A DNA stretch of 32,178 nucleotides, taken from positions 1 to 32,178 of the forward strand of contig JACCWD010000077.1 in assembly GCA_013697825.1 (NCBI GenBank). The letters run 5' to 3'. The position numbers and the translations under genes were made by a program. Shown here piece after piece: positions 12,101 to 31,980 of the stretch. Position 1 is the stretch's first letter. Each line of letters starts with the position of its first letter. This stretch comes from Rubrobacter sp. (GTDB lineage: Bacteria; Actinomycetota; Rubrobacteria; Rubrobacterales; Rubrobacteraceae). The notes under the pieces were generated by a model that saw only the letters and a list, made by a program, of their open reading frames with translations, searched no databases and was not told the origin of the DNA.

Positions 12101-12178
12101 TAGTATGATTTATACGGCCTTTGATGGGATGTTTTGTTTGGAGGGAAGGTTTTTTATATCATTGATCCGATCTATTGC

Positions 12179-12208
12179 TTGACACGGGTTGTTCCGGGGG
12201 GATAGGAT
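12179..12208 (+). promoter_or_regulatory. Predicted promoter of the GntR gene, giving a nearly leaderless transcript
   Basis: A consensus -35 TTGACA (12179-12184) is followed after 18 bp by TAGGAT (12203-12208). Transcription would start at about 12215-12217, essentially on the ATG at 12217, which has no good ribosome site. This agrees with leaderless translation. Confidence 0.5.
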
Positions 12209-12216
12209 GGCGCGGT

Positions 12217-12957
12217 ATGAGGGAGGAAGGAGGGCTCGCGGCGGCGATGGCGTTGACGGACGAGGCGATCGGGAAGTTGAAAGAGATGATTCTCTCCGGG
12301 CAGATACAGCCGGGAGAGAAGCTGCCCGTGGAGAAGGCGCTCGCCGAGAAGCTCGGGCTTTCGCGCAGTTCGCTGCGGGAGGCTGTGCGCGCCCTCACCA
12401 TGCTCGGGGTATTGAAGACTCGACGGGGGGACGGGACTTATGTGACGAGTTTGGAGCCGGAGTTGTTGCTCGCGTCGACGGGGATCGCTTTGGATCTTCT
12501 TCAGGGGAACACGCTTGTCGAGTTGATCGAGGTGCGGAGACTCCTCGAGCCGGGTGCGACCGCGCTGGCGACGGCGAGGATCGGCGACGCCGGTCTCGCC
12601 CGCCTCGAAGACTGCATGGAGCGAATAGACAACGCCCGCGACATTAACGACCTCGTCGAGGCCGACGACGAGTTCCACGCCGTCATAGCGCATGCCGCCG
12701 AGAATTCGACGCTCGCTTCGCTCCTCGGAAACCTCTCGGGGAGGACGTTGCGCGCCCGCCACTGGCGCGGCCTCACCGACGAGGCGGTGATCGAGCGCAC
12801 GAAGGCCGGACACCACTCGATTTACCGGGCCATCCGGGGCAAAGACCCCGAACAGGCCCGCGCCGCCGCCGCGATGCACATCCACGAAACCGAAACCTGG
12901 TTCCGCGAGTTCGAGGTGAAGCAAGCGGATGCCTCGCCGGAGCCGGAGATAGCATGA
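12217..12957 (+). CDS. GntR-family regulator, FadR/FCD subfamily
   Basis: Transcriptional regulator of 246 residues. The winged helix covers about residues 12-75: AIGKLKEMILSGQIQPGEKL, then LAEKLGLSRSSLREAVRALTMLGVL and TRRGDGTYV in sequence. The C-terminal FCD domain carries the expected metal/acid-binding residues: Asp and His in EADDEFHAVIAH, His in AGHHSIYRAI and His in AAMHIHE. FCD proteins commonly sense carboxylates or sugar acids. ATG 12217 lies two bases after a predicted transcription start; the next in-frame ATG, 12247, has a GGAGG too far upstream. It is divergent from the receptor-fucD unit and 13 bp before the ABC ATPase gene, so it likely regulates one or both. TTGTTAGACAA at 3323 also fits this family's operator type. 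Confidence 0.9.
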   Translation: MREEGGLAAAMALTDEAIGKLKEMILSGQIQPGEKLPVEKALAEKLGLSRSSLREAVRALTMLGVLKTRRGDGTYVTSLEPELLLASTGIALDLLQGNTLVELIEVRRLLEPGATALATARIGDAGLARLEDCMERIDNARDINDLVEADDEFHAVIAHAAENSTLASLLGNLSGRTLRARHWRGLTDEAVIERTKAGHHSIYRAIRGKDPEQARAAAAMHIHETETWFREFEVKQADASPEPEIA

Positions 12958-12970
12958 CGGGACAGAAAAG

Positions 12971-14476
12971 ATGACCACGAACACGGAAACCGAATCGGTG
13001 GTTCGCATGAAGGGCGTCTCGAAGGAGTTCCCCGGCGTGCTCGCCGTCGACTCCGTGGATCTCGACATCCTTCCGGGCGAAGTGCATGTCGTGGCCGGAG
13101 AGAACGGGGCCGGAAAGTCCACGCTGATGAAGCTCCTCTCGCAAGTCGAGAGGCCGAGCAGTGGGGGGATCGAGGTGTCCGGGGAGGATGTCGAGTTCCG
13201 GGGGCCGAGGCACGCGCAATCGCTCGGGGTGGCGATGGTCCACCAGGAATTCGCGCTTGCGCCGCACCTTTCGGTCGCCGAAAACCTGTTCATGGGGCAG
13301 GAGCCGGGCCGCTTCGGGTTCGTCAATCGGCGAGCCGAGAAAGAGGACGCGGAGCGGCTGCTCCGGCGGGTGGGACTCGGCGTGGACTCCACGCGGCTCA
13401 TATCCAGCCTCACGGTCGCCGAGCAGCAACGGATCGAGATCGCGAAGGCCCTCGCCATTGACGCGAAGGTCGTCATCATGGACGAGCCGACGGCGACGCT
13501 GGCGGAGAAGGAGATCGAAGAGTTGTTCGGGATCATCCGAGACCTCACTTCCCACGGGAGGGCCGTCCTGTATATCTCGCACCGTCTCGATGAGATCTTC
13601 CGCATCTCCGACCGCGTTACGGTGATGCGCGACGGCAAGGTCGTGGACACCCTCCCCACCCCCGAACTCGACGAGGACAAGCTCGTCCGGCTCATGGTCG
13701 GGCGCGAGGTCGAGAACCTTTATCCGAAGCCGGAGGCGGAGATCGGGGACGTTTTGCTCACCGTGCGCGGAATCGGCCGGGGAAGAAAGCTCGTGGACTG
13801 CTCCTTCGAGGTGAGGGCGGGGGAAATCCTCGGTTTCGCCGGGCTTGTCGGAGCCGGAAGAACCGAACTCGCCCGCGCGGTCTTCGGCGCGGACCGCAAA
13901 GACTCCGGCGAGGTCGAACTCGAAGGGAAGAAGCTCCGCATAAAGAAGCCGCAAGACGCCATTGACGCGGGCATCGGGTATCTGACGGAGGATCGGAAAG
14001 GGGCGGGGCTCGCGCTCCAGCTCGGCGTGGATCAGAACATCACGCTCGCGAGTCTTCCCGCTTCGTTCGGCTTCATCAATCTGAAGGAGGAGCGGAGGAT
14101 CGCGCAGCGAAGGCGCGAGCAATTGAATATCCGAACGCCTTCGATCCGGCGCAAGGTTCAGGTTCTCTCCGGCGGAAACCAGCAAAAAGTCGTCGTCGCC
14201 AAGTGGCTGGAGACGAAGGCGCGGGTTCTCCTCTTCGACGAACCCGCGCGCGGCATAGACGTCGGGGCGAAGGCCGAGATGTTCGGCCTCATCGGGGAGC
14301 TTGCCAAAGAGGGGCGCGGGATCGTGCTAATAAGCTCGTATTTGCCGGAGCTCATAAACATGTGCGACCGGATACTTGTCATGAACGAGGGGAGGGTGGC
14401 GGGTGTGATCGGACGCGGGGAGTTCTCCGAAGAGAGGATCATCGCCCTCGCCACCGGAATGGAGGAGGCCGAATGA
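12971..14476 (+). CDS. Sugar ABC importer ATPase with two nucleotide-binding domains (RbsA/XylG type)
   Basis: Cytoplasmic ATPase of 501 residues powering a ribose/xylose-class importer. The first domain has Walker A GENGAGKST (about 44-52), signature SLTVAEQQRIEIAKAL, Walker B VVIMDEPTATL and the H-loop YISHRLDE. The second has the degenerate Walker A GLVGAGRTELA typical of this family, signature LSGGNQQKVVVAKWL, Walker B VLLFDEPARGIDVGAKAE and Ser in place of His in ISSYLPEL, also usual here. The gene follows gntR by 13 bp, and its stop overlaps the permease start as ATGA. The substrate is not defined; the fuculose-phosphate-type aldolase downstream and fucD upstream suggest L-fucose or another deoxy sugar. 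Confidence 0.94.
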   Translation: MTTNTETESVVRMKGVSKEFPGVLAVDSVDLDILPGEVHVVAGENGAGKSTLMKLLSQVERPSSGGIEVSGEDVEFRGPRHAQSLGVAMVHQEFALAPHLSVAENLFMGQEPGRFGFVNRRAEKEDAERLLRRVGLGVDSTRLISSLTVAEQQRIEIAKALAIDAKVVIMDEPTATLAEKEIEELFGIIRDLTSHGRAVLYISHRLDEIFRISDRVTVMRDGKVVDTLPTPELDEDKLVRLMVGREVENLYPKPEAEIGDVLLTVRGIGRGRKLVDCSFEVRAGEILGFAGLVGAGRTELARAVFGADRKDSGEVELEGKKLRIKKPQDAIDAGIGYLTEDRKGAGLALQLGVDQNITLASLPASFGFINLKEERRIAQRRREQLNIRTPSIRRKVQVLSGGNQQKVVVAKWLETKARVLLFDEPARGIDVGAKAEMFGLIGELAKEGRGIVLISSYLPELINMCDRILVMNEGRVAGVIGRGEFSEERIIALATGMEEAE

Positions 14477-15471
14477 CGGACACGACCGAACGCCGGAGCC
14501 TCGGTACGGCATTACGAGACCGCTTCTCCGACGCCGTCTCCCAACTCGCCGCCGCGGGCGCGCTCTTCGCCGTCTTCATCTTCCTCTCCTTCGCCTCCCC
14601 CGCCTTCCTCACCGCGGACAACTTGTTTAACATTGGCTCTCAAACCGCCGTTGTGGCGGTCATCGCCATCGGGGTTACGCTCGTCATCATCACGGCGGGG
14701 ATCGACCTTTCCGTCGGCTCGGTGGCGGCTTTCTCCGGAGTGATGGGGGTGATGATGATCGTGGACTTCGGCCTCCCGGTGCCGCTCGCGATCATCGGGG
14801 GGACGGCCGTCGGGGCCACGTGCGGCCTCGTGAACGGGTTCCTCGTCTCGACCGCCGGACTGAATCCGTTCATCGCGACGCTCGGGATGCTCTCGGTGGC
14901 TCGCGGGCTTGTGTACATCTTCTCTGACGCGCAGGCCGTGTTCGGGACGCCGGACTCGTTCCGGCTTCTCGGGCAGGGTGTGATCGCGGGCGGCATCCCG
15001 ATACCGCTCGTCGTCCTCCTCACGGTCGGCGCCATCGGCTTCGTCGTCCTCTCGCGCACGAAGCTCGGGAGGTACTCGTACGCCATCGGGTCGAACCCGG
15101 AGGCGGCGAGGCTCTCGGGCATACCGGTGCGCCGTTACCTCACGATCGTGTACGTCATCTCCGGCGCGCTCGCGGGCTTCGGGGGCATGATCGCCGCCTC
15201 GCGGGTCAACTCCGGGCAGCCGAACTTCGGGGTGGGACTCGAGCTCGACGTGATAGCCGCCGCCGTCATCGGCGGGGCGAGCCTGTTCGGCGGGCAGGGA
15301 ACCGTCGTCGGGACGCTCATCGGCGCGTTCCTCATAGCGCTCATAAGGAACGGCTCCGTATTGCTCGGCGTGGATATTTTTTACCAGCAAGTCATTATCG
15401 GCGTGGTCATCTGGATCGCGGTGTTCTGGGATCAGTACCGTCGCCGTCGCCTGGCGGCGTCGTCGGAATAA
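14473..15471 (+). CDS. Sugar ABC importer permease (RbsC type)
   Basis: Integral membrane permease of 332 residues, starting at the ATG that overlaps the ATPase stop (ATGA). About ten hydrophobic segments are visible from residue 20 onward. Family motifs include VIAIGVTLVIITAGIDLSVG after the second span, NGFLVSTAGLNPFIATLGML, the cytoplasmic loop RTKLGRYSYAIGSNPEAARL (EAA-like ATPase contact) and VIAAAVIGGASLFGGQGTVV near the C-terminus. It would form a homodimeric channel with the ATPase and lipoprotein receptor on either side. Its TAA stop overlaps by one base with an ATG that is probably not used. Confidence 0.94.
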   Translation: MTDTTERRSLGTALRDRFSDAVSQLAAAGALFAVFIFLSFASPAFLTADNLFNIGSQTAVVAVIAIGVTLVIITAGIDLSVGSVAAFSGVMGVMMIVDFGLPVPLAIIGGTAVGATCGLVNGFLVSTAGLNPFIATLGMLSVARGLVYIFSDAQAVFGTPDSFRLLGQGVIAGGIPIPLVVLLTVGAIGFVVLSRTKLGRYSYAIGSNPEAARLSGIPVRRYLTIVYVISGALAGFGGMIAASRVNSGQPNFGVGLELDVIAAAVIGGASLFGGQGTVVGTLIGAFLIALIRNGSVLLGVDIFYQQVIIGVVIWIAVFWDQYRRRRLAASSE

Positions 15472-15497
15472 TGGAACGAGCAGGGGAAAGGGGAAGC

Positions 15498-16529
15498 ATG
15501 AGAAAGAAGCGTATATTCATAGTCGCGGCGGGGGCGGCCCTCGCCCTCACCCTCGCGGCGTGCGGCGCCGAGGTGAGGGAGACTGGCGGCGGAGGCGAGG
15601 AAGGTACCGGAGGCGAGGACGGCCCCGTTCAGCTCGCCGTTGTGCCGAAGGCCGTCGGCTTCGATTTTTGGGCGACAGTTCGGGCCGGGGCGGAGTGCGC
15701 CGCCGAAGAAGCCGAGGGCGAGGTCGAGATCCAGTGGGACGGCGTTACGCAGGAGACCGACGTCACCGGGCAGGTGAACCTGCTCCAGAACTTCGTCTCG
15801 CAGGGAGTGGACGGCCTCGTCTACGCCGCCACCGACGCGCAGGTTCTCGCCGACGTCTCCCAGAACGCCCTCGACCAGGGGCTTGTCGTCACGAACATAG
15901 ACTCCGGCACCGATCCGCAGCCCGACGAGATCCCGGTCTTCGCCACAGACAACGTTGCGGCCGCCGAGGACGCTACCGAATACCTCGTCAAGCAGCTCGG
16001 CGAGGAGGGCGGCGAGGTCGCCTTCATACCGTTCCAGCCCGGCACCTCGACGAACGACACCCGCACCGAGGGCTTCAGAAACGTCCTCGAAGAGAACCCG
16101 CAGGTCGAGCTCGTCGCGGAGCAGTCGAGCGAGAGCGACTACAACACCGCGCTCCAGGTTACGCAGGACATCCTCACCGCCAACCCCGAACTCGACGCCA
16201 TATACGCCGCCAACGAGCCGGGGGTCCTCGGCGCGGCGGAGGCCGTGCGCGGCTCGGGGAGGGCCGAAGACATCACCATCGTCGGCTGGGACACCGCCCC
16301 CGACGAACTCGAAGCCGTGAGAGACGGCGTCGTCTCGGCGCTCGTCGCCCAGAATCCCTTCCGCATGGGATACGACGGAACAAACGCGGCGGTCGAGGAG
16401 ATAAGAACCGGGGAGAGCGTCGAAGGTGGAGACACCGGCTCGACCCTCGTCACCCAAGACAACATAGACGACGAAGAGGTTCAGGCCGTCCTCAACCCGA
16501 GCTGCGACAACCCGCCGACCGACGATTGA
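15498..16529 (+). CDS. Sugar ABC importer receptor, periplasmic-binding-protein-4 lipoprotein (RbsB type)
   Basis: Extracytoplasmic sugar receptor of 343 residues. From ATG 15498, chosen for the AAAGGGGAAGC ribosome site, the product starts MRKKRIFIVAAGAALALTL with lipobox cysteine 22 (LAAC). A Gly/Glu-rich linker follows before the binding fold. Peripla_BP_4 patterns are visible: VGFDFWATVRAGAECAAEE, QNFVSQGVDGLVYAATDAQV in parts, then DSGTDPQ, ATDNVAAA and DAIYAANEPGVLGAAEAV. An ATG at 15471 would put ten extra residues before the signal peptide. It completes the ABC operon begun at 12971; a hairpin 13 bp downstream may end or reduce transcription before the aldolase gene. Confidence 0.93.
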   Translation: MRKKRIFIVAAGAALALTLAACGAEVRETGGGGEEGTGGEDGPVQLAVVPKAVGFDFWATVRAGAECAAEEAEGEVEIQWDGVTQETDVTGQVNLLQNFVSQGVDGLVYAATDAQVLADVSQNALDQGLVVTNIDSGTDPQPDEIPVFATDNVAAAEDATEYLVKQLGEEGGEVAFIPFQPGTSTNDTRTEGFRNVLEENPQVELVAEQSSESDYNTALQVTQDILTANPELDAIYAANEPGVLGAAEAVRGSGRAEDITIVGWDTAPDELEAVRDGVVSALVAQNPFRMGYDGTNAAVEEIRTGESVEGGDTGSTLVTQDNIDDEEVQAVLNPSCDNPPTDD

Positions 16530-16541
16530 TAACGCCACAGG

Positions 16542-16557
16542 CGGGGAGGTTTCCCCG
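16542..16557 (+). terminator. GC-rich hairpin after the RbsB-type receptor gene
   Basis: CGGGGA-GGTT-TCCCCG is a perfect 6-bp stem with a 4-nt loop, starting 13 bp after the TGA. The following bases are TCTCG rather than a T-run, so it may stabilise mRNA ends or attenuate rather than fully terminate. Confidence 0.4.
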
Positions 16558-16774
16558 TCTCGAACGTGAGAGCGATTGTGCCGCCCAGAAGAAGGCGTCG
16601 ATGCTTTCGAAAAGCCCTCCGGCGTGGAAGCTGGGATGTAGCGTGAGGAATCTTCGCATCTCCCATCGTGCAAGAAGTAGGCGGCGTATGCTGATTTAGG
16701 AAGAGCGATATGAGTGATGAGCTATGTTAAGGTGCGATTGTCTTTGTAACTAATGGTTTGTTCGGGGGATCGGC
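16558..16774. other. Long leader region upstream of the class II aldolase gene
   Basis: I see no supported gene in this stretch. Its right third (about 16690-16765) is AT-richer and could hold a promoter for the aldolase gene, but I could not find a convincing -35/-10 pair. A CGGGGGA ribosome site precedes the TTG start at 16775. Confidence 0.4.
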
Positions 16775-17434
16775 TTGGATCACGTAAACCTGCGGGCGGG
16801 CATCGTGGAAACGACACTCAAGATGAGCCAGTCCGGCCTTGTGGTCGGAACCTCTGGAAACGTCAGCGTCCGAACGCCTGACGATAGGATACTCATCACC
16901 CCCAGCGGCCTCCCGTACGAGGAGATGAAGCCCGAGGACGTGGCCGTCGTAGATATGGAGGGAAACCTCGTGAGCGGCCCTCTCGCCCCGTCGGTCGAGA
17001 CGCCGATGCACTTGGGAATCTACGCTGCGAGACCGGAGGCCAAAAGCATCGTCCACACCCACGCCCGCTACTCGACGATTCTGGCGTGCATGGGACTTGA
17101 GATACCACCCGTCCACTACATGCTCGCCGAGCTGTCGGACGAGGGAAGAATCCCCGTCGCGGATTACGCTGTTTACGGCAGCCGGGAACTCGCCGAGAAT
17201 GCCAGCCGCGCTCTCGGCGACTCCCACAGAGCATGCCTCCTTCGGAACCACGGAACCATCGCCGTCGGAGGCTCGCCCGAGGAAGCCTTCAAGCGAACAG
17301 AGGTTCTGGAGGAGATGGCGGAGATCTTCCACCATACCCGCCTCGCCGGAGGCCCGATCCTCCTCTCCCAAACCCAGATCACCGAGACCGCCGAAAAGAT
17401 GTCCGCCGGCTACGGACAACTCAAGAAAATATAA
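16775..17434 (+). CDS. Class II aldolase, L-fuculose-phosphate aldolase type
   Basis: Zinc-dependent class II aldolase/adducin-fold protein of 219 residues, the usual size of FucA. Motifs: GTSGNVSVR (about 25-33, phosphate-binding loop), ITPSGLPYEEM, Glu in the SVETPMHLGIY segment (about residue 73), the zinc pair in VHTHARYST (about 91-99) and the third zinc His in LLRNHGTIAVG (about 152). The start is TTG 16775, preceded by CGGGGGA at good spacing. FucA cleaves L-fuculose-1-phosphate to DHAP and lactaldehyde; relatives act on ribulose- or threonate-derived substrates. No fucose isomerase or fuculokinase gene is in the window, so either those are elsewhere or the substrate differs. Confidence 0.85.
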   Translation: MDHVNLRAGIVETTLKMSQSGLVVGTSGNVSVRTPDDRILITPSGLPYEEMKPEDVAVVDMEGNLVSGPLAPSVETPMHLGIYAARPEAKSIVHTHARYSTILACMGLEIPPVHYMLAELSDEGRIPVADYAVYGSRELAENASRALGDSHRACLLRNHGTIAVGGSPEEAFKRTEVLEEMAEIFHHTRLAGGPILLSQTQITETAEKMSAGYGQLKKI

Positions 17435-17555
17435 AATCCCACCTTCGACAAACTCCCACAGCGCGACCCGAAAGCAATGAATTAAAAGCTTCTTTCACCC
17501 CGCGCCTCTCCCGGCTTCGCGCTGCAAAGCCCCCCGACTTTTCACGCAATAGCTC

Positions 17556-17585
17556 TTGCATGTGATCGTTTGATGTGCATATACT
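17556..17585 (+). promoter_or_regulatory. Predicted promoter and operator of the rhamnose operon
   Basis: TTGCAT (17556-17561) and TATACT (17580-17585) are separated by 18 bp. The interval 17557-17579 is bounded by TGCA at both ends and contains two GATNGT/GATGTG-like half repeats, so it may be the DeoR operator overlapping the -35 box and spacer. The predicted start (about 17592) leaves a leader of only about ten bases before the ATG at 17602. Confidence 0.5.
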
Positions 17586-17601
17586 GGTCGAACTTGGGTG
17601 A

Positions 17602-18420
17602 ATGGATGGCAATTTGGGGAAAAGCGATCAACAAAAACCAGATTTGCGTTCTTTGGTGCCGGAGGAGCGTCGCCAGCGGATAGCCCGGCTCGTCGAAGAG
17701 ACGGGGAGCGTGAAGGTGGCGGCTTTGGAGGAAGAGTTCGGGGTTTCGCCGATGACGGCTCGCCGCGATCTCCTCGCTCTGGAGAGATCCGGCCGTATTC
17801 AACGGACGCACGGCGGCGCGGTGCTTCCGGGCTTCGCGGGATACGAGGACTCTTTCCGGCGGAGGATGGAGGAGAACGTCGCGGCGAAGGAAAGGCTCGC
17901 GCGGGCCGCTCTCGGTTTGGTGGAGGCCGGGGAGACCGTCTTCATAGACTCCTCGACCACGGCGTATTTCGCGGCGCGCGAGATCTTCGGGGCGGGGATG
18001 CGGGTTACGCTCCTCACGAACTCCGTCCCGGTGATGGATCTGTTTTCGAGCGACAAGTCGCCGAACACGAACCTCGTGGGGATGGGCGGAACGTTGAGGA
18101 GGCTCACCCTCTCCTTCGTCGGGCCTCACGCCGCGCGAACCGTCGGCGCCCACTTCGCGGACAAAGCGTTCATAAGCGTCAAGGGCGTGACGGCGGACGG
18201 GCATCTCACCGACCCCGACCCGCTCGAAGCCGAGGTGAAGCGGGCCATGATCGAGCGTTCCGAAAGACCGATTCTGCTCGTGGACGGAGGCAAATTCGAG
18301 AAGCGGGGACTCAGCGTCATAGCCCACGTGTCGGAGGTTTCTTTCGCCTTGATCGCGGACGGGGCCGAGGACGCATCGAAGATGCTCGCCGATGCCGGAG
18401 TGGAGGCGCGAAGTGTTTAG
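17602..18420 (+). CDS. rhaR: DeoR/GlpR-family regulator, probable rhamnose repressor
   Basis: Transcriptional regulator of 272 residues. The DeoR winged helix is at about 22-77: EERRQRIARLVEETGSVKVA, then FGVSPMTARRDLLALERSG and the family ending RTHGGAV. The C-terminal sugar-phosphate isomerase-like sensor domain shows DSSTTAYFAA, LLTNSVPVMDL, GMGGTLRR and FISVKGV in the usual order. As first gene of the operon it precedes the ASRT gene by nine bases, then the kinase and transporter. DeoR-type RhaR proteins control rhamnose catabolism in rhizobia, so autoregulation and repression of the downstream genes, relieved by a rhamnose-pathway intermediate, is the natural inference. Confidence 0.88.
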   Translation: MDGNLGKSDQQKPDLRSLVPEERRQRIARLVEETGSVKVAALEEEFGVSPMTARRDLLALERSGRIQRTHGGAVLPGFAGYEDSFRRRMEENVAAKERLARAALGLVEAGETVFIDSSTTAYFAAREIFGAGMRVTLLTNSVPVMDLFSSDKSPNTNLVGMGGTLRRLTLSFVGPHAARTVGAHFADKAFISVKGVTADGHLTDPDPLEAEVKRAMIERSERPILLVDGGKFEKRGLSVIAHVSEVSFALIADGAEDASKMLADAGVEARSV

Positions 18421-18429
18421 GGGGCATTC

Positions 18430-18792
18430 ATGAGCGAGGGCGCGCGAATCTGGCTCATCCCCGACGGGTTCATCCCGGAGGAGAGTTCCGGCTCGCACGA
18501 GAGCCACGAGGCGATATGCGTCCTCAATACCTCGGGGTGGGATGCGCGTTTGTCCATCTCTTTCTATTTCGAGGATCGGGAGCCGATAAAGGACGTTTCC
18601 GTGGAGGTTCCCGCCGAGCGAACCCGCCACATTCGAACCGATGGGATCGAGGGCGTGGAGGTTCCGCGCGGGGTTCCATACGCCGTCCGGGTCGAGTCGG
18701 ACGCGCCCGTCACCGTACAACATTCGCGGATGGACACCACACAGCCCGCCCTCTCCCTCATGACCGCGATGGCATATCCGGTGGAGCCATGA
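18430..18792 (+). CDS. Anabaena sensory rhodopsin transducer (ASRT)-family small protein
   Basis: Small soluble protein of 120 residues. The N-terminal RIWLIPDGFIPEESSG, then HESHEAICVLN and FYFEDREPIKD, and the C-terminal VQHSRMDTTQPALSL match the ASRT family (DUF1362/PF07100), a tetrameric beta-sandwich first known as partner of a cyanobacterial rhodopsin. No rhodopsin gene is nearby. Most family members occur away from rhodopsins, and a role in binding small molecules such as sugars has been proposed from comparative genomics as I recall. A GGGGG ribosome site lies six bases before the ATG; its stop overlaps the rhamnulokinase start (ATGA). The location between rhaR and rhaB suggests a rhamnose-linked sensor or chaperone; the function is inferred. 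Confidence 0.85.
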   Translation: MSEGARIWLIPDGFIPEESSGSHESHEAICVLNTSGWDARLSISFYFEDREPIKDVSVEVPAERTRHIRTDGIEGVEVPRGVPYAVRVESDAPVTVQHSRMDTTQPALSLMTAMAYPVEP

Positions 18793-20288
18793 GCGCGGCG
18801 ACGGAATTCCTCGCGACGGATCTCGGCGCGGAGAGCGGGCGCGCGCTCCTCGCCGGATTCGACGGCGAGAGGATGTCGCTCGGTGAGATCCACCGCTTCC
18901 CGAACGTCCCGGTTCACGCCGCCGGAACCCTCCACTGGGACGCGCTCCGCCTCTTCGACGAGATAAAGCGCTCTCTGTCGAAGGCCGTCCGAGAGTCCGA
19001 AAATCTGGAAAGCATCGGTCTCGACACGTGGGGCGTGGACTTCGCCCTCCTCGACCGCGACGGATGTCTCGTCTCGAACCCCGTCCATTATCGGGATTCG
19101 ACGACGGAAGGAATCTCGCAAAGAGCCGAAGAGCGTGTGTCGCGCGAGGAAATGTACCGCGTAACCGGCATCCAGTTTCTTCCTTTCAACACCGTCTACC
19201 AGCTTATGGCGATGAAGGGTTCACCCCTTCTCGAAGCGGCGGAGGACATGATCATGATCCCCGACCTCTTCGCATACTGGCTCACCGGAGAAAAGGCGTG
19301 CGAGTATACCGCCGCGACCACCACCGGACTCTACGGACTCGAAGAAAGAGGATGGGCCACGGCCTTGATCGAAACCCTCGGCCTCCCGACGAAGATCTTC
19401 CCGGCCATAAACCCGCCCGGCGAAACCCTCGCCCCACTCCTCCCCGCCGTCGCCGACGAAGCCGGAGCTTCCGGCCTCCATCTCACCTCCGTCGCCTCGC
19501 ACGACACGGCCTCCGCCGTCGTCGCGGTTCCGGCGGAAGGCGAGGACTTCGCATACATCTCCAGCGGCACATGGTCGCTCGTCGGCTTGGAGACACCGGA
19601 CCCGATCACGAACGAAGAAGCCCGCCGCTCGAATTTTACAAACGAGGGAGGCTTCGGAGGGACGAACCGCTTCCTCAAAAACGTGATGGGACTTTGGATC
19701 CTCCAGGAATGCCGCAGACAATGGATGCACGAAGGCAAGGAATACTCATACGAGGAACTCGCCCAAATGGCGAAAACCGCCGCTCCCGCGCAATCCTTCA
19801 TAGACCCCGACCATCACACTTTCCTCGCTCCGGGAGACATGCCCTCTCGGATCGAGCGCTTCCTCGTCGCGACGGGACAACCGCCCGTCGAGGAGTCCGG
19901 GGATATGGCTCGCTGTGTGCTCGAAAGCCTCGCGCTCAAGTACCGATGGGTCGTGGACAAGGCCGAGTCCGCCTCCGGTCGGAAAGCCGGGGTCGTCCAC
20001 GTCGTGGGCGGCGGCGCGCGAAACGAACTCCTTTGCGAACTCACCGCCGAAGCCGCCGGGAGGACGGTTCTCGCCGGACCGTACGAAGCGACCGCGCTCG
20101 GGAACGCGCTCGTCCAGGCATACGCGAGCGGTCGCCTCGGTTCTCTCGACGAGATGCGCGAGGTGGTTCGGAACTCCTTCGCGGTGCGCGTTTACGAACC
20201 TCGGGACGACCGGGGAAGGTGGGAAGAAGTTTATGGAAGGTTCACCGATCTTCTCGAAACGGAGAGTCGGGGAGTGGCCGCGGAATGA
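18789..20288 (+). CDS. rhaB: L-rhamnulokinase
   Basis: FGGY-family kinase that phosphorylates L-rhamnulose to L-rhamnulose-1-phosphate. The 499 residues match RhaB (about 489 in enterobacteria). Visible motifs: DLGAESGR (11-18, phosphate-binding loop), LDTWGVDFALLD (78-89), HYRDS (100-104), ASHDTASAV with catalytic Asp239, SSGTWSLVG (258-266, adenosine-site side) and HVVGGGARNELLCEL in the C-terminal ATPase domain. Glu15 replaces the Ser more often seen in DLGASSGR. It starts at ATG 18789 overlapping the ASRT stop. It lies between the regulator genes and the rhamnose importer, with isomerase and aldolase further down the same operon. Confidence 0.95.
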   Translation: MSAATEFLATDLGAESGRALLAGFDGERMSLGEIHRFPNVPVHAAGTLHWDALRLFDEIKRSLSKAVRESENLESIGLDTWGVDFALLDRDGCLVSNPVHYRDSTTEGISQRAEERVSREEMYRVTGIQFLPFNTVYQLMAMKGSPLLEAAEDMIMIPDLFAYWLTGEKACEYTAATTTGLYGLEERGWATALIETLGLPTKIFPAINPPGETLAPLLPAVADEAGASGLHLTSVASHDTASAVVAVPAEGEDFAYISSGTWSLVGLETPDPITNEEARRSNFTNEGGFGGTNRFLKNVMGLWILQECRRQWMHEGKEYSYEELAQMAKTAAPAQSFIDPDHHTFLAPGDMPSRIERFLVATGQPPVEESGDMARCVLESLALKYRWVVDKAESASGRKAGVVHVVGGGARNELLCELTAEAAGRTVLAGPYEATALGNALVQAYASGRLGSLDEMREVVRNSFAVRVYEPRDDRGRWEEVYGRFTDLLETESRGVAAE

Positions 20289-20324: not shown

Positions 20325-21902
20325 ATGGCCTCAGCGGATAACGGCATGAACGGCGACGGGAGCACATCCGTGGAGCGGGTGGGGATCTTCGCCCTCTCCG
20401 GAGCGACGAAGCGTTTCGGGGGCGTCGTCGCCGTGGACGGCGTGGACTTCGACCTCCTCGAAGGCGAGGTTCACGCGCTCGTCGGCGAGAACGGAGCCGG
20501 GAAAAGCACCCTCATGAAGATGGTCGGCGGCGTCCACGCGCCGGATGAAGGGAGCGTCGAAGTTGGCGGCGAGGCCGTCTCCTTCGCGTCTCCGGGAGAG
20601 GCCGAGGGGGCGGGGATCGCCATGATCCCGCAGGAACTCGACCTCTTCCCGGAACTCACCATCGCGGAGAACCTCTTCGTCGGGCGGAAACGCCCCCGCA
20701 CCCGGTGGGGCGGCATGGACTGGAAAACGATGAAGGAGGAAGCCCGCCGGAGTCTCGGCTCGATGGGCGTGAGCCTCGACGTGGGCGCCACCGTCAAACA
20801 GCTTTCGACCGCCAATCGGCAAATAGTTGCCATCGCACGCGCCCTCCTCGGCGACGCGAAGGCCGTCATCATGGACGAGCCGACCGCCTCCTTGACCGAG
20901 CGCGAGGCCGAGAAGCTCTTCGAGGTCATCGCCGACCTCACCGCGAGCGGCGTCGGCGTCGTGTACATCTCCCATCGTCTCGAAGAAGTCTTCCGAATCT
21001 CCGACCGCATCACCGTCATGCGCGACGGGAGGCACATAAAGACCGCCCCGACCTCCGACCTCGACTCCGACGAACTCGTCCGGCTCATGGTCGGACGCGA
21101 ACTCAAGGAACTCTTTTCCCGCAGCCGCCACGAAACCGGGGACATCGCCCTCGAAACACGCGGCCTCACCCGTGAGGGGGAGTTCGAGGATGTGGATCTC
21201 ACCGTCCGCCGCGGAGAGGTCGTGGGACTCGCGGGCCTCATCGGAGCCGGGCGTACCGAACTCGCGCAAACTCTCTTCGGACTCCATAAGGCGGACGCCG
21301 GGGAGATCCGGATAGACGGCGAGGCCGTGAAGAGTCTTTCTCCTCAAAAGGCGATGGAGAAGGGCATTTTCTATGTGCCGGAGGAGAGGAAGTCGCAGGG
21401 GCTTATCTCGCCGTTCCCGATCTCCGCCAACATCACGCTGAGCATCCTCGACCGCATCTGCCGGATGGGGTTCGTGAAGCGGGGGCGGGAGCGCGAGACG
21501 GCGGAGAGGTTCGCGGCTTCGCTCTCCATCCGGGGAGCCGGGATGGACGACCCGGTGAGCCGTCTTTCCGGCGGGAACCAGCAAAAGGTCGTGCTTGCGA
21601 AGTCGCTCGCGAGGGAGCCTTCGGTTCTCCTTCTCGACGAGCCGACGCGCGGCGTGGATGTCGGGGCGAAGTCCGAGATATACCGTCTCATTGACGATCT
21701 CGCCGGAGAGGGGAAAGCCGTGCTTCTCATATCGTCGGAGCTCGAAGAGATACTCTCGATGTCCGACCGCATCGTGGTGATGCGCGAGGGGAAGGTGAGC
21801 GGCGAGTTCGAGCGGAGCGAGGCCGATCAGGAAAAGATCATGGCCGCCGCCACCGGAACGAAGGCCGGACAAACCGCCGAAGTCCGCGAGGAGCGGACAT
21901 GA
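20325..21902 (+). CDS. rhaT: Rhamnose ABC importer ATPase (two-domain, RhaT type)
   Basis: Cytoplasmic energy-coupling subunit of 525 residues. The first domain has Walker A GENGAGKST (about 54-62), a divergent signature QLSTANRQIVAIARALL, Walker B AVIMDEPTASL and H-loop YISHRLEE. The second has the family's degenerate Walker A GLIGAGRTELA, signature LSGGNQQKVVLAKSLA, Walker B VLLLDEPTRGVDVGAKSE and ISSELEE in place of an H-loop. A 24-residue N-terminal extension precedes the domain, from the ATG with GGAGA upstream. Its stop overlaps the first permease start (ATGA). The rhamnose assignment follows from operon content, not from the ATPase itself. RhaT here means the rhizobial-type ABC subunit, not the enterobacterial proton symporter. 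Confidence 0.93.
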   Translation: MASADNGMNGDGSTSVERVGIFALSGATKRFGGVVAVDGVDFDLLEGEVHALVGENGAGKSTLMKMVGGVHAPDEGSVEVGGEAVSFASPGEAEGAGIAMIPQELDLFPELTIAENLFVGRKRPRTRWGGMDWKTMKEEARRSLGSMGVSLDVGATVKQLSTANRQIVAIARALLGDAKAVIMDEPTASLTEREAEKLFEVIADLTASGVGVVYISHRLEEVFRISDRITVMRDGRHIKTAPTSDLDSDELVRLMVGRELKELFSRSRHETGDIALETRGLTREGEFEDVDLTVRRGEVVGLAGLIGAGRTELAQTLFGLHKADAGEIRIDGEAVKSLSPQKAMEKGIFYVPEERKSQGLISPFPISANITLSILDRICRMGFVKRGRERETAERFAASLSIRGAGMDDPVSRLSGGNQQKVVLAKSLAREPSVLLLDEPTRGVDVGAKSEIYRLIDDLAGEGKAVLLISSELEEILSMSDRIVVMREGKVSGEFERSEADQEKIMAAATGTKAGQTAEVREERT

Positions 21903-22894
21903 GCGGCGCCTCGACGACCACCACGGCGACCGAACACTCCGACGGCCCTCTGAAACGCTTCCTCACGCGACCGGAGGCTCCGGCCCTCATCTTCCTCGCC
22001 GCGCTCGTCGTGGTTCTCTCCGTCGTCGCGGACGGCTTTCTCGGGGCATCGAACTTCGAGGGGATACTTTCGCAGGTCGTCGTTATCGGGATCATCGCCC
22101 TTGCCGTCAACCAGGTCGTCCTCTCCGGGGAGATAGACATCTCCACCGGCTCCATGCTCGGCCTTTGCGCGATGGCCTCCGGAACCGTCGCCGTCGCGGG
22201 CGGGGGTCTCCTTTTCACCCTTCTCGCGGGCGTCGCCGTGGGCGCTCTCGCCGGGGCGGTGAACGGGTTTCTCGTTACCGTGGCCCGCATACCGGCGATC
22301 ATAGTTACGCTCGGGATGCTTTACGCGCTGCGTGGCGTGCTTCTCCTCGTGACCGGGGGGACGTGGGTGACGGGTGTACCCGCCGAAGCTCGGGTACTCG
22401 GTATCGGGTCGGTGTTCGGCGTGTCGCTTCCCATAATCGTCCTCTTCGCGCTTTTCATCGTCATGGAACTCGTGAATCGCCACTCGGACTGGGGAAGGAA
22501 TGTCCTCGCAGTCGGGGGGAATCGGCGGGCGGCGATGCTCGCGGGGTTGCCCTCAAGGCGGGTACGGTTTTGGGCGTTCGTGCTCGTCGGGGCGGCGGTC
22601 GGGATCGCGTCGGTCATATATATCGGACGGGCGGGTTCCGTCCAGACGAACGCGGGTACGGGACTCGAGTTGCAAGTTATCGCGGCGGTCGTTATCGGGG
22701 GGACGAGCATCGCGGGCGGGCGCGGTTCGACGCTCGCCGCGCTGACCGGGGCGGTTCTCATCGGCGTAATTTTGAACGGTATGGTACTTCTCGGGATTCC
22801 GGGCGTTTGGCAGGATGCGGTTCTCGGAGCTTTGATCCTCCTCGCCGTCTCCACCGACGTCCTCCGACGCAAACTTCTGGGAGACAAAGCATGA
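21899..22894 (+). CDS. rhaP: Rhamnose ABC importer permease 1
   Basis: Membrane permease of 331 residues with about nine to ten hydrophobic segments after a hydrophilic 25-residue N-terminus. BPD_transp_2 patterns: ALAVNQVVLSGEIDISTGSM, NGFLVTVARIPAIIVTLGML, the loop RHSDWGRNVLAVGGNRRAAM contacting the ATPase, and VIAAVVIGGTSIAGGRGST. It overlaps both neighbours by ATGA (rhaT before, second permease after), so the three are probably made in fixed ratio. Rhizobial-type rhamnose importers likewise use two different permeases, which supports the assignment. Which of the two should be called rhaP or rhaQ is only by analogy of order. Confidence 0.92.
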   Translation: MSGASTTTTATEHSDGPLKRFLTRPEAPALIFLAALVVVLSVVADGFLGASNFEGILSQVVVIGIIALAVNQVVLSGEIDISTGSMLGLCAMASGTVAVAGGGLLFTLLAGVAVGALAGAVNGFLVTVARIPAIIVTLGMLYALRGVLLLVTGGTWVTGVPAEARVLGIGSVFGVSLPIIVLFALFIVMELVNRHSDWGRNVLAVGGNRRAAMLAGLPSRRVRFWAFVLVGAAVGIASVIYIGRAGSVQTNAGTGLELQVIAAVVIGGTSIAGGRGSTLAALTGAVLIGVILNGMVLLGIPGVWQDAVLGALILLAVSTDVLRRKLLGDKA

Positions 22895-23859
22895 GCCAGT
22901 ACACCGAAACCTCCCGCGGCTTCCTGAGCCGCATAAAGTTCTCCCGAGAACTCGTCCTCCTCGGCGTACTCATCGTCATAGTCATCGCCATGAGCCTCCT
23001 CTCCCCCGTCTTCTTGACGCTCGGGAATTTGCTGAACACTTCGCGGTACTTCGTGGAGATCGGGCTTATATCGCTCGGTATGACCTTGATCATCATAACG
23101 GCGGGCATCGACCTCTCGGTCGGCTCGAACATGGCCCTCGTCTCCGTCGTCGTCGGCTTCTCGTTCCTCGGCGGCGTGCCGCTTCCTCTGGCGATCGTCC
23201 TCGGCGTGGTCGCGGGCCTCGCAGCCGGAGTCTTCAACGGTCTCTTCGTCACGATGCTCGACCTCCACCCGCTCGTGGTGACGCTCGGCACGTTCGCGAT
23301 GTTCCGCGGCCTCGCCTATGGCTTCTCCGACGCGGACGCGGTGTCGAGCTTCCCGGCGTGGTTCGCGTATTTCGGGCAGGCGTATTTCGGGCCGATTCCG
23401 GGGCAATTGATCGTCTTCGTCATCGCGGTCGCGGTGGTATGGCTGATCCTTTCCCGGACTCGCTTCGGACGGTACGTGTACGCCATCGGACACAACGAGG
23501 AGGCGGCGCGGTTCTCCGGGGTTCCTGTCGAGAGGGTGAAGCTGGCTATTTACGCGGGGACCGGGCTTCTCGTCGGGCTGGCGTCGGTCATATACATCTC
23601 CCGCGTCTCGACGGCCCGCGGCGACGCCGGACTCGGCCTCGAACTCGACGTCATCGCCGCCGTCGTCCTCGGCGGCGCGAGCATCTACGGCGGGAAAGGC
23701 ACGATAGCCGGAACCGTCCTCGGCGTCCTCATCATCGCCACGCTGCGAAACGGACTCCTCCTCGCGGGCGTCCCGAGCACGTGGCAGCTTTTCCTCCTCG
23801 GCGTTTTGCTCCTCGTAGCGGTGTTCCTCAACGAGTTCTTCAGAAAGGAAGAAGGATAG
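22891..23859 (+). CDS. rhaQ: Rhamnose ABC importer permease 2
   Basis: Second membrane permease, 322 residues from the ATG at 22891 that overlaps the preceding stop. It shares the BPD_transp_2 layout: SLGMTLIIITAGIDLSVGSN, NGLFVTMLDLHPLVVTLGTF, the cytoplasmic loop RTRFGRYVYAIGHNEEAARF and VIAAVVLGGASIYGGKGTIA. It is clearly a paralogue of the first permease, not a duplicate, and probably forms a heterodimeric pore with it. It ends FRKEEG just before the receptor gene, with AAGGAAG near its stop acting as a possible ribosome site for the receptor. Confidence 0.92.
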   Translation: MSQYTETSRGFLSRIKFSRELVLLGVLIVIVIAMSLLSPVFLTLGNLLNTSRYFVEIGLISLGMTLIIITAGIDLSVGSNMALVSVVVGFSFLGGVPLPLAIVLGVVAGLAAGVFNGLFVTMLDLHPLVVTLGTFAMFRGLAYGFSDADAVSSFPAWFAYFGQAYFGPIPGQLIVFVIAVAVVWLILSRTRFGRYVYAIGHNEEAARFSGVPVERVKLAIYAGTGLLVGLASVIYISRVSTARGDAGLGLELDVIAAVVLGGASIYGGKGTIAGTVLGVLIIATLRNGLLLAGVPSTWQLFLLGVLLLVAVFLNEFFRKEEG

Positions 23860-23890
23860 ACATATGTCAATCGAAGGGAAGGGAGAGACG

Positions 23891-24928
23891 ATGTTGAAAA
23901 CGTTGCGTATGACTCTGGCGGTGTTTCTGGCCCTCGCCGTCGCGGGGTGCGGGGCCGGGGTCGGGGAAGCGCCTGATGAAGGCGGAGGAGAAGGCGAGCA
24001 GGGAGGCTCCGGCGAGGGTGGGGCTAACAGCATTTGCATGATGCCGAAGCTCGTGGGAATCCCGTATTTCAACGCCGCCGAGGAGGGGGCGAACGAGGCC
24101 GCCGAGGAGCTTGGCGTGGACTTGACATACGACGGTCCGACGGAGGCGCTCGCGGCGGAGCAGGTGCGCCGGATCGAGCAGTTCACCCAGCAACAATGCG
24201 ACGCGATCTCCGTCGCAGCTAACGACCCGGACGCCCTCGCTCCGGCCATGACTCAGGCCGGTGAGGCCGGTACCGCGACGAGCGCGTGGGACGCCGACGT
24301 GGCGGAGGACTCGCGCGAAGTGTTCGTAAACCAGGCGACCTTCGAAGCCATCGGGCAAACTCTCGTGGATATCATGGCCGAGCAGACCGGGGGCGAGGGC
24401 GAGTTCCTCGTCGTCACCGGCTCTCTGACCGCCCCGAACCAGAACTCGTGGATCGAGGAGATGGAGGCGCACATGGAGGCCGAGTACCCGGACATGTCCA
24501 TCGCCGAAATTCTTCCCGGCGAGGAGGACCTCCAGCTCGGCATCGACGTGACCACGGACTACCTCCGCGCCAACCCGGACACAGCGGGAGTCTTCGGCAT
24601 CACCACGGTCGCGCTTCCGGGAGCCGCCGAGGCCGTCCAGCAACTCGGGCGCGAGGGCGAGGTCGCCGTGACGGGCCTCTCCACGCCGAACGAGATGCGC
24701 CCGTACGTCGAGTCTGGCACCGTTGAGGAGTTCGCTCTCTGGAACCCCGTTGACCTCGGCTACCTCGCCGTTCACGTCGCGAACGCTCAGGTCGAAGGAA
24801 ACCTCCCCGACTCCGGGACCTTCGAGGCCGGACGCCTCGGCGAGGTCGAGATGCTCGCCGAGGACGAAGTCCTCCTCGGCCCGCCCGACGTTTACAGCAG
24901 CGAGAACATAGACGACTTCGACTTCTAA
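23891..24928 (+). CDS. rhaS: Rhamnose ABC importer receptor lipoprotein
   Basis: Extracytoplasmic Peripla_BP_4 receptor of 345 residues. From ATG 23891 the protein has a compact lipoprotein signal with hydrophobic core LAVFLALAVA and cysteine 20 (VAGC), followed by a long Gly/Glu linker (to about residue 45). ATG 23864 also has an acceptable AAGGA site and would add nine residues to the n-region. RhaS-type patterns: CMMPKLVGIPYFNAAEEGAN, VAANDPDALAPAM, TSAWDADV, LTAPNQNSWIEEM and LWNPVDLGYLAVH. The NPVDLGYLA segment is typical of RhaS/LsrB-like receptors. It is the last transporter gene, 18 bp before the isomerase, which supports L-rhamnose as ligand, though autoinducer-2-like ligands are bound by close relatives. 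Confidence 0.9.
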   Translation: MLKTLRMTLAVFLALAVAGCGAGVGEAPDEGGGEGEQGGSGEGGANSICMMPKLVGIPYFNAAEEGANEAAEELGVDLTYDGPTEALAAEQVRRIEQFTQQQCDAISVAANDPDALAPAMTQAGEAGTATSAWDADVAEDSREVFVNQATFEAIGQTLVDIMAEQTGGEGEFLVVTGSLTAPNQNSWIEEMEAHMEAEYPDMSIAEILPGEEDLQLGIDVTTDYLRANPDTAGVFGITTVALPGAAEAVQQLGREGEVAVTGLSTPNEMRPYVESGTVEEFALWNPVDLGYLAVHVANAQVEGNLPDSGTFEAGRLGEVEMLAEDEVLLGPPDVYSSENIDDFDF

Positions 24929-24946: not shown

Positions 24947-26215
24947 ATGCCGAACGTATACGGCGTCCCCGGCATCGTCGAGAGAGAAGGGATGGATTTG
25001 GAGAGCGACGACATGAGGGCTTACGAAACGTTCGTATCCGACCTCGAAGCGCGGGGCGTGGATGTGTCCGGTGTCGAGAGGCGGCTTCGGGGACAGAAGA
25101 TCGAGACTCCCTCGTGGGGATACGGAAATTCCGGGACGCGGTTCAAAGTGTTTCCGCAGCCCGGAGTTCCGCGCGACCCCTTCGAGAAGTTCGAGGACGC
25201 CGCCGAGGTACACCGCCTCACCGGGGTCTCCCCCACCGTGGCGATCCACATTCCGTGGGATAGGGTGGAAGACTACGCGGAACTCAAGGAACACGCGCGT
25301 TCGCTCGGGATGGGGATCGGGGCCGTCAACCCGAACCTCTTCCAGGACGAGGAATACAAGCTCGGGAGCGTATGCAACCCGGACGCGAACGTGCGCCGAA
25401 AGGCGACCGACCACCTCCTCGAATGCGTCGAGGTCGCCCGAGAGGTCGGATCGGACATCGTCTCGCTATGGCTCGCCGACGGCACGAACTATCCGGGGCA
25501 GGATTTCTTCATAGAGCGCCGGAACCGGATGCTCGAATGCCTATCCGAAACGTATGCCGCGATGCCCGAACATATGCGGCTTCTCGTCGAGTACAAATTC
25601 TATGAACCCGCCTTTTACCACACCGACCTCGCCGATTGGGGAGCGGCGCTCGGCGTGTGCCGGAGGCTCGGGGAGAGGGCGCATGTTCTCGTGGATCTCG
25701 GGCATCACGCGCAGGGGGTGAACGTCGAGCACATCGTGGCTCTTCTCCTCGACGAGGGAAGGCTCGGCGGGTTCCATTTCAACAACCGGAAATACGGGGA
25801 CGACGACCTCATCGTGGGCTCCGTGAACCCGTTCGAATTGTTCCTTATCTACGCGGAGCTTGTCGAGGCCGAGGAGGAGACGGAGCATCCCATCGCGTAC
25901 ATGATCGACCAGTCCCACAACATCGAGCCGAAGATAGAGGCCATGATCCTCTCGGTGATGAACTTGCAAGAAGCATACGCGAAGGCCCTCCTCATCGACC
26001 GCGACGCCTTGCGGAAGGCTCGACGCGAAGGAGATGTCCTCGCCGCTCACCGCGTTATGCTCGACGCATACAACACCGACGTTCGCCCATTGTGCGCGAA
26101 GGCGCGCGAAGACCTCGGAGCCTCGCCCGACCCGATCTCCTCGTTCCGGTCGAGCGGCTATGCGGAGAAAGCATCCCGCGAGAGGCTCGAAGGTTCGCAG
26201 GCCGGGTGGGGATGA
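24947..26215 (+). CDS. rhaI: L-rhamnose isomerase (Pseudomonas stutzeri/rhizobial type)
   Basis: TIM-barrel metalloenzyme interconverting L-rhamnose and L-rhamnulose. The 422 residues carry metal ligands in family positions: Glu215 in VEYKFYEPAFYHTD, Asp250 in LVDLGHHAQG, His277 in GGFHFNN, the acidic cluster at 285-287 and Asp321 in YMIDQSHNIEPK. The first part (ETPSWGYGNSGTRF, HIPWD) also fits this type, which differs from E. coli RhaA. The start is uncertain: 24947 is kept because IVEREG and the next 20 residues align with the N-terminus expected for the family, although ATG 24992 and 25013 have comparable or better ribosome sites. It is placed between the receptor and the fused aldolase. 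Confidence 0.93.
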   Translation: MPNVYGVPGIVEREGMDLESDDMRAYETFVSDLEARGVDVSGVERRLRGQKIETPSWGYGNSGTRFKVFPQPGVPRDPFEKFEDAAEVHRLTGVSPTVAIHIPWDRVEDYAELKEHARSLGMGIGAVNPNLFQDEEYKLGSVCNPDANVRRKATDHLLECVEVAREVGSDIVSLWLADGTNYPGQDFFIERRNRMLECLSETYAAMPEHMRLLVEYKFYEPAFYHTDLADWGAALGVCRRLGERAHVLVDLGHHAQGVNVEHIVALLLDEGRLGGFHFNNRKYGDDDLIVGSVNPFELFLIYAELVEAEEETEHPIAYMIDQSHNIEPKIEAMILSVMNLQEAYAKALLIDRDALRKARREGDVLAAHRVMLDAYNTDVRPLCAKAREDLGASPDPISSFRSSGYAEKASRERLEGSQAGWG

Positions 26216-26264: not shown

Positions 26265-28340
<2,076 letters not shown>

Positions 28341-30525: not shown

Positions 30526-31980
30526 TTAAGCAGAGTCAAAAAATAGAGAAAGTTCGGGAGCCACATTATTACGGGCCGTTTCAAGAAGTTGGGAAGAGAA
30601 GCGATCCTCGATGTATTGACGAGCGAAGTCGTTCGGAGCAACGAGGGTAAGAACCCCATCATCAAGAGAACTCGCCACCACGCCCTCGAACCACGGACCG
30701 AAGGCTTCATCCTCGGAGACACTGGCAAACTCGGTGACGAGCTTTTCCCAGACTGGGGTTGCAATCGGGTCGGGATCCGGCATCCTACCAGGCGACTCCA
30801 TGGACGCCTTTGACTCCCCACCATCCCCCCCCGAGAAGTCAAGTGAGGCTTGGCCGTCGGGGGTATTATGTAAAGTAACGTCGAGTGCTTTTGGGGAGAT
30901 GTCGAGTTCGGGGGCTGTCTGGATCGCCCATTTTAGCCACGGGCCTCGGCGGCGTATTTGCTTTTGGAATGGGAGGGCTTCAGCGTAGCGGAGACAGCGT
31001 TCGGAGCCGTGGTTTGCGACGAGATCTTCGGCGACGCTTCCCCACACGCCCTCGGTTTTCAAGCGTTCGAGAGCTATGAGGTTTTCGGGGGTGCGTTCGA
31101 GGCGAACCGCGGGTCTACGCTGAGAGAAGCCATCCTGTATTTTGTAGCAGACCGCATGGGACTTCTTCTTCGTCTTGGTGTATGAGACGCTTTCGAGGAA
31201 GCCCTTCTCCGTGAGTTCTTCGTGGGCGGGGGCGAGCTTTTCCTTGATCTTCGACGGGTATTTGTAGTTGCTAAGCGGGATGCGATCCCGGAGCGCGAAG
31301 AGATCCACCTCCCACCTGTGGCGGTGGTTCCGCTTTTTGTCTATAAACCGGTACAACCTCTTCGCGACGGCGGAGTTTAGCGAATAATAAAAATCCACGT
31401 CGAGGCCCTTCAGGTAATCCGAGTTATACGATTCGACGAAATAATCCGAGAGCTTGACGCGGGTGCGATCCGCCCTCGCGCCGCTCGCGTCGGAGGTTTC
31501 GGTATGCTGGACGTGGTCGAGGAGGCTGAAAGTGTCCGTGACGAACGACTCGGAACTCTTCCGGTAAAAGGCGTTCTTGCTCTGAATTCTCGTCCCCGCC
31601 AACCTGTCGAGGGACTGCTTCACCTGCTGATAATCCCGCCCCCCGTGCGACCGATTCAGAAGACTGACCATCTCATAAAGCGAAAACGAGAGCCAGCCAT
31701 CCGACGGAACCTCGCCCTGCCTCTCGATGATCTGCAAAAGAGCCACATACACGTCCTGATCGAGCGTCCCCGGCAAACCGAGACCGCTCAAAGCCCGAAC
31801 AGTCCACGTTTGCTTGAGAACTTGGCCGTTGCCGGAGCGGATCTCATTCCGGTACTCGATGACCCCGTCTCCGCGCCTCGCGTTGCCAACGCTGAAATAC
31901 GGGAGATCCTCGAAGTTCCCCTCCGCCTTGACTATGTGCTTCTTCTCCACCTGCCCCGAAGCCTTCATAGAACCGTCCAC
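30526..31980 (-). CDS. repA: Plasmid replication initiator (RepA type) with a C-terminal DnaA domain I-like module
   Basis: DNA-binding initiator of 484 residues. The N-terminal two-thirds match replication initiator protein A (PF10134-like): EDLPYFSVGNARRGDGVIEY, then WTVRALSGLGLPGTLDQDVY, the LNSAVAKRLYRFIDKKR segment (about 201-217) and a second winged-helix-like part, LSNYKYPSKIKEKLAPAHEE (about 236-255). After a Gly/Ser/Pro-rich linker (about 375-408), residues 409-475 resemble DnaA domain I: VWEKLVTEFA, AFGPWFEGV, LTLVAPNDFARQYIEDRF. That domain in DnaA contacts the helicase. The start is GTG 31980 behind AAAAGGG; ATG 31968 is an alternative. The gene reads away from the iterons at 32109-32178, as expected for an iteron-controlled replicon. 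Confidence 0.88.
   Translation of the reverse strand: MDGSMKASGQVEKKHIVKAEGNFEDLPYFSVGNARRGDGVIEYRNEIRSGNGQVLKQTWTVRALSGLGLPGTLDQDVYVALLQIIERQGEVPSDGWLSFSLYEMVSLLNRSHGGRDYQQVKQSLDRLAGTRIQSKNAFYRKSSESFVTDTFSLLDHVQHTETSDASGARADRTRVKLSDYFVESYNSDYLKGLDVDFYYSLNSAVAKRLYRFIDKKRNHRHRWEVDLFALRDRIPLSNYKYPSKIKEKLAPAHEELTEKGFLESVSYTKTKKKSHAVCYKIQDGFSQRRPAVRLERTPENLIALERLKTEGVWGSVAEDLVANHGSERCLRYAEALPFQKQIRRRGPWLKWAIQTAPELDISPKALDVTLHNTPDGQASLDFSGGDGGESKASMESPGRMPDPDPIATPVWEKLVTEFASVSEDEAFGPWFEGVVASSLDDGVLTLVAPNDFARQYIEDRFSSQLLETARNNVAPELSLFFDSA

Follow-up and report, generated by a model that had tools for sequence, protein, structure and literature searches.

The ASRAH domain was named by De Souza, Iyer and Aravind in 2009, who proposed that ASRT proteins occurring without a rhodopsin are stand-alone cytoplasmic sugar sensors acting by protein contacts (PMC2739507). 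The same study described a conserved isomerase-aldolase-kinase neighbourhood of ASRT genes, Thermotoga included, and reported two ASRT paralogues in Rubrobacter xylanophilus, of which one has such a neighbourhood; a sugar pocket was predicted from the structure 1nc7, in which H25 and C29 of TM1070 contact 1,2-ethanediol (PMC2739507). Thermotoga maritima, the source of TM1070, grows on rhamnose, its rhaMADBC operon is induced 27-37-fold by this sugar and its DeoR-type rhaR forms a separate transcription unit (PMC3750489). The ASRT of Anabaena binds and loops DNA with a weak sequence preference, acting on the phycoerythrocyanin promoter, and R109, Q110 and N113 have been reported as its DNA-contact residues (PMC8660804). 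In the open literature, no paper was found that names both sensory rhodopsin transducer and rhamnose, and neither a function test of TM1070 nor an experiment on the sugar-binding prediction of 2009 or on the exact job of ASRT in rhamnose use was found.

The DNA analysed here, called the window, is a stretch of 32,178 nucleotides from Rubrobacter sp. GCA_013697825.1 that makes up the whole of contig JACCWD010000077.1, in a genome that is 82% complete. Its ASRT protein resembles TM1070 (1nc7) in Pfam family, fold, the histidine and cysteine of the pocket and the isomerase/aldolase/kinase gene setting, with 37% identity in the structural alignment; the window gene lies between rhaR and rhaB, whereas the rhaR of T. 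maritima is transcribed separately. The R. xylanophilus paralogue of De Souza et al. (2009) comes from the same family of bacteria and the same kind of operon, and no difference that matters was seen. The Anabaena ASRT (2ii7) shares the Pfam family, the fold and the SHExxCxxN signature, but belongs to another branch of the tree, is encoded in a rhodopsin operon and carries the DNA-contact residue Arg109. RhaM/RhaU (PF05336) is likewise a small optional gene of rha clusters and alternates with ASRT in the clusters sampled, but it is unrelated in sequence, and a mutarotase activity of ASRT would be hypothetical. A sensor or accessory function in rhamnose use had been presented in the initial annotation as a new role; since the sugar-sensor role of rhodopsin-free ASRT proteins was published in 2009, for Rubrobacter too, that idea is a rediscovery. 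The additions of the present analysis are the neighbourhood counts, the branch split with the loss of the arginine, the optionality of the gene and the finding that ASRT never shares a cluster with RhaM.

The rhamnose operon and its ASRT gene

The operon is encoded on the forward strand in the order rhaR-ASRT-rhaB-rbsA-rbsC-rbsC-SBP-rhaI-rhaEW. It begins with a DeoR-family regulator gene (17602-18420; PF08220 and PF00455), named rhaR from its context, followed by the ASRT gene (18430-18792) and by the rhamnulokinase gene rhaB (18789-20288), whose product contains the FGGY N and C domains and has TIGR02627 as its best family, with 461 bits, below the cut-off of 528. The transporter genes come next: an RbsA-type sugar ABC transporter ATPase (20325-21902; 753-792 bits to the proteins at the same position in related rha operons), two homologous RbsC-type permeases (21899-22894, PF02653 with E = 6.6e-36, and 22891-23859, an open reading frame whose start codon was chosen in the analysis) and the sugar-binding protein (23864-24928; PF13407, E = 1.8e-63). 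The last two genes code for the L-rhamnose isomerase RhaI (24947-26215; TIGR02635, 598 bits against a cut-off of 531) and for RhaEW, a fusion of rhamnulose-1-phosphate aldolase and dehydrogenase (26265-28340; PF00596 and PF00106/PF13561, 868 bits to Paenibacillus RhaEW). Judged from sequence, the substrate of the operon is rhamnose: RhaI exceeds its cut-off, the best family of RhaB is rhamnulokinase and RhaEW is present. A scan of positions 17300-19000 for promoters revealed no consensus site, and the repeats upstream of rhaR did not include a clear DeoR operator.

Two further features of the window were observed around this operon. Directly upstream, at 12175-17434 (+), a second sugar cluster codes for a GntR/FCD regulator, RbsA, RbsC, a binding protein and a fuculose/ribulose-1-phosphate-type aldolase of class II, so that two aldolases are encoded near the rhamnose operon. 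At 30529-31980 (−), a plasmid-type replication initiator was detected (PF10134 RPA and a DnaA N-terminal domain, with a weak TrfA match); as the window is the whole contig, the rhamnose operon may be plasmid-borne.

The ASRT open reading frame starts with ATG, codes for 120 residues and ends with a TGA at 18790-18792. Nine nucleotides separate it from the end of rhaR at 18420, and it overlaps rhaB, whose ATG lies at 18789, by the sequence ATGA, in agreement with the arrangement given in the initial annotation; this spacing suggests that ASRT is co-translated with the rhamnose catabolism genes. The product belongs to PF07100 (E = 6.6e-45, 152 bits against a cut-off of 25, residues 4-117) and possesses the complete SHExxCxxN signature, with W8, S25, H26, E27, C30 and N33 all present. 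In an alignment of 119 sequences, H26 and E27 were kept in 98% and C30 in 92%. Comparison with three relatives whose synonymous sites are unsaturated gave dN/dS values of 0.10-0.16, so that the gene is conserved under purifying selection and a chance open reading frame is excluded. An AlphaFold model built from 61 relatives reached a pLDDT of 93 and is predicted to share the eight-stranded beta-sandwich fold of 1nc7 and 2ii7; its best PDB match was 1nc7 (TM-score 0.89, rmsd 1.6 Å), followed by 2ii7. Beyond these two structures the fold search gave no significant match, carbohydrate-binding modules being weak hits with E of about 0.06 to 0.1.

Within Rubrobacteraceae, the gene order of the window was kept in three genomes (G011, G041 and G196), although in G196 the ASRT gene starts farther from rhaR; the ASRT protein of G011 is about 71% identical to that of the window. 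The same operon was found without ASRT in G249, a genome that is 100% complete, and in G228, where RhaM is encoded downstream. In an operon that is stable in other respects, ASRT is therefore an optional gene.

Neighbourhoods of ASRT genes across bacteria

Relatives were collected by a profile scan of 84,980 species genomes, for which the rhamnose-type alignment A2 was used, the alignment of all ASRT branches being too diverse for a contig scan. The scan returned 528 relatives, and the best 80 of these, 78 of them distinct, were analyzed. With A2 as the profile these 80 loci are biased to the branch of the window, and as the best matches to the window protein, with many close Paenibacillaceae among them, they do not represent PF07100 as a whole. 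Rhamnose genes (RhaA, RhaI, RhaB or RhaEW) were found within 4.5 kb of ASRT in 33 of the 78 distinct loci, and within 100 nucleotides in 31. These neighbourhoods of the nearest relatives support the proposal that the window protein serves rhamnose metabolism, and the neighbourhood analysis suggested in the initial annotation gives a positive result. A GDSL esterase context, mostly beside an ABC sugar transporter, accounted for 26 of the 78 loci and other contexts for 19. The clustering of ASRT with rhamnose genes recurs in Actinomycetota, Thermomicrobiota, Chloroflexota and Bacillota, and it persists whether the isomerase is RhaA or RhaI, which are unrelated to each other.

The order of genes around ASRT was compared in 47 rhamnose-linked loci. 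RhaEW was the upstream neighbour in 29 and an isomerase (RhaA or RhaI) the downstream neighbour in 31; on either side, the isomerase gene directly adjoined ASRT in 33 of the 47, whichever its type. RhaR was a direct neighbour in 8 loci and RhaB in 9. The initial annotation had also considered an accessory to RhaR or RhaB, which is not favoured by these data, RhaEW and the isomerase being the commonest direct neighbours. As a sample independent of ASRT, all 57 RhaEW clusters from 301 Bacilli were inspected, and ASRT was present in 9 of them, at several different positions.

Some relatives have neighbours without a link to rhamnose, among them genes for altronate dehydratase, GH42 and glycerate kinase. 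A connection with pectin is suggested by other loci, with rhamnogalacturonan lyase genes adjoining ASRT in L060 and L090, and a GH88 gene in L101, a member of the GDSL group. In Paenibacillus (loci L036-L101, for example L044:3000-10400 and L068:3000-10400), a gene for a close relative of the window protein ends a conserved cluster coding for a response regulator, a binding protein, two permeases and a GDSL esterase; the cluster resembles one for the uptake of pectin or rhamnogalacturonan. In the phylum sample, many weak PF07100 matches of 20-32 bits, usually covering profile positions 27-99, were seen within long open frames of 250-2800 residues in other bacterial families of the phylum; these may be secreted multi-copy ASRAH proteins or unrelated beta-sandwiches.

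Light, DNA contacts and the relation to RhaM

A tree was built from a short alignment of 119 sequences, and many of its forks lack resolution. The window protein groups with rhamnose-linked proteins. The ASRT of Anabaena is placed in a branch of 18 rows (SH-aLRT 100), together with the second Rubrobacteraceae paralogues. Genes adjoining this Anabaena-type branch code for TPP enzymes, a universal stress protein and glucose-6-phosphate dehydrogenase, in agreement with the second context already published. Positions 11, 12, 48, 83, 99 and 104 distinguish the branches. A third, divergent branch was noticed in loci L021-L028 (family f5) of the same phylum, two of which adjoin genes for an M24 peptidase and a phosphotriesterase-like protein, not sugar genes.

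If the window ASRT were a photosensory transducer, its rhodopsin would have to be encoded elsewhere. No PF01036 rhodopsin was detected in the window or in its 82%-complete genome, so that the statement of the initial annotation that the operon is without any rhodopsin holds at this level; across the family it does not, since 17 of 40 Rubrobacteraceae genomes encode PF01036 rhodopsins, among them G041 (C1:2063272-2063928) and G196, which share the ASRT type of the window. The absence of a rhodopsin is hence a weaker argument than was first thought, and missing linkage and tree position are better ones: in G041 and G196 the rhodopsin and ASRT genes lie hundreds of kilobases or more apart, three of the five genomes with this ASRT type, two of these three being incomplete assemblies, lack a rhodopsin, and the Anabaena protein belongs to its own well-supported branch. 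On genome content, linkage and tree, photosensing is rejected, its probability being negligible, in accordance with the earlier judgement that light sensing is implausible here.

A role as a DNA-binding co-regulator of rha transcription, comparable to that of the Anabaena ASRT on its promoter, could be suggested by the DNA binding and looping of that protein (PMC8660804) and by the position of the window gene directly after rhaR. However, the residues equivalent to R109, Q110 and N113 are T104, Q105 and L108 in the window protein; position 104 is occupied by T, S or G in rhamnose-linked members and by R in 88% of the Anabaena-like branch. The window protein is also acidic (pI 4.7), although the Anabaena fragment is acidic too (5.2), and the regulator gene adjoins ASRT in only 8 of the 47 loci. 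With the equivalent of Arg109 absent, such a co-regulator is highly improbable.

The distribution of RhaM leads to another reading, in which ASRT would be a non-homologous replacement of RhaM (PF05336), the mutarotase of L-rhamnose, and would accelerate the interconversion of anomers to supply the isomerase with the one that it prefers. RhaM was found in none of the 80 ASRT loci (the best 80 of 528), while the same profile recovered 25 of 26 RhaM loci. The 57 RhaEW clusters of Bacilli comprised 9 with ASRT, 9 with RhaM and none with both, and in Rubrobacteraceae PF05336 is absent from all five genomes that encode the rhamnose-type ASRT, just as this ASRT type is absent from all five that encode PF05336. 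The frequent contact between the ASRT and isomerase genes is also consistent with such a function, as is the operon name rhaMADBC, in which rhaM is probably the authors' name for TM1070, going by gene and locus order; the text of the paper is silent on its identity. T. maritima encodes PF07100 and no PF05336, and it grows on rhamnose (PMC3750489). Against this, the exclusion is weak in the unbiased samples (one-sided p = 0.10 in Rubrobacteraceae and 0.19 in Bacilli, relatedness ignored) and reaches p = 0.006 only between samples chosen differently, relatedness again being ignored. The remaining 39 of the 57 RhaEW clusters contain neither gene, so the rhamnose pathway runs without ASRT. Of the 36 genomes with rhamnose-context loci (Bacillota and others), 13 encode PF05336 elsewhere, in each case more than about 1.5 kb away from rhamnose genes. 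Some clusters with ASRT have no isomerase gene, and ASRT matches RhaM neither in sequence, PF07100 being the sole hit of the window protein, nor in fold. A replacement of RhaM is judged unlikely. Strict exclusion of the two genes at the genome level is false outside Rubrobacteraceae, PF05336 being present in 18 of 50 genomes, and holds at the cluster level only. That ASRT and RhaM never occur in one cluster hints at overlapping roles, short of proof.

Proposed role and its meaning

Taken together, these results indicate that the window ASRT is a TM1070-type ASRT (ASRAH) protein that probably binds sugar in the cytoplasm as an optional accessory of rhamnose catabolism. By homology it would be a small cytoplasmic beta-sandwich that forms a tetramer, as in the ASRT family, whose homotetramers have a ligand cleft formed in part by the dimer interface. 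A small sugar, most likely L-rhamnose or an early intermediate of the pathway, would be held in the pocket lined by His26 and Cys30. The protein should act on the sugar itself or through contacts with other proteins, not via light and probably not via DNA, and the best-supported mechanism is that binding of rhamnose or the early intermediate in the His26/Cys30 pocket would exert a regulatory effect on pathway proteins. A sensor is the most likely form of this rhamnose-binding accessory, a mutarotase-like enzyme being less likely: within this explanation, the published idea of a sensor or allosteric effector is an about even call, and a catalytic, mutarotase-like role is a tentative possibility. 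It is similarly doubtful, as a wider proposal, that the TM1070-type branch takes the place of RhaM in rha operons, those of Thermotogota, Rubrobacteraceae and Paenibacillaceae among them, either as another L-rhamnose mutarotase of unrelated origin or as a carrier that selects one anomer and passes it to the isomerase.

The solved structure 1nc7 with its pocket, together with the pattern of RhaM avoidance, allows the prediction of 2009 to be examined at the bench in two clear ways, through rhamnose binding and through mutarotation. For the rhamnose-linked branch, 'sensory rhodopsin transducer' is a family name that leads annotation astray. ASRT recurs as an optional gene in rhamnose operons and is not the curiosity of one genome; its kind had been described before in the same genus.
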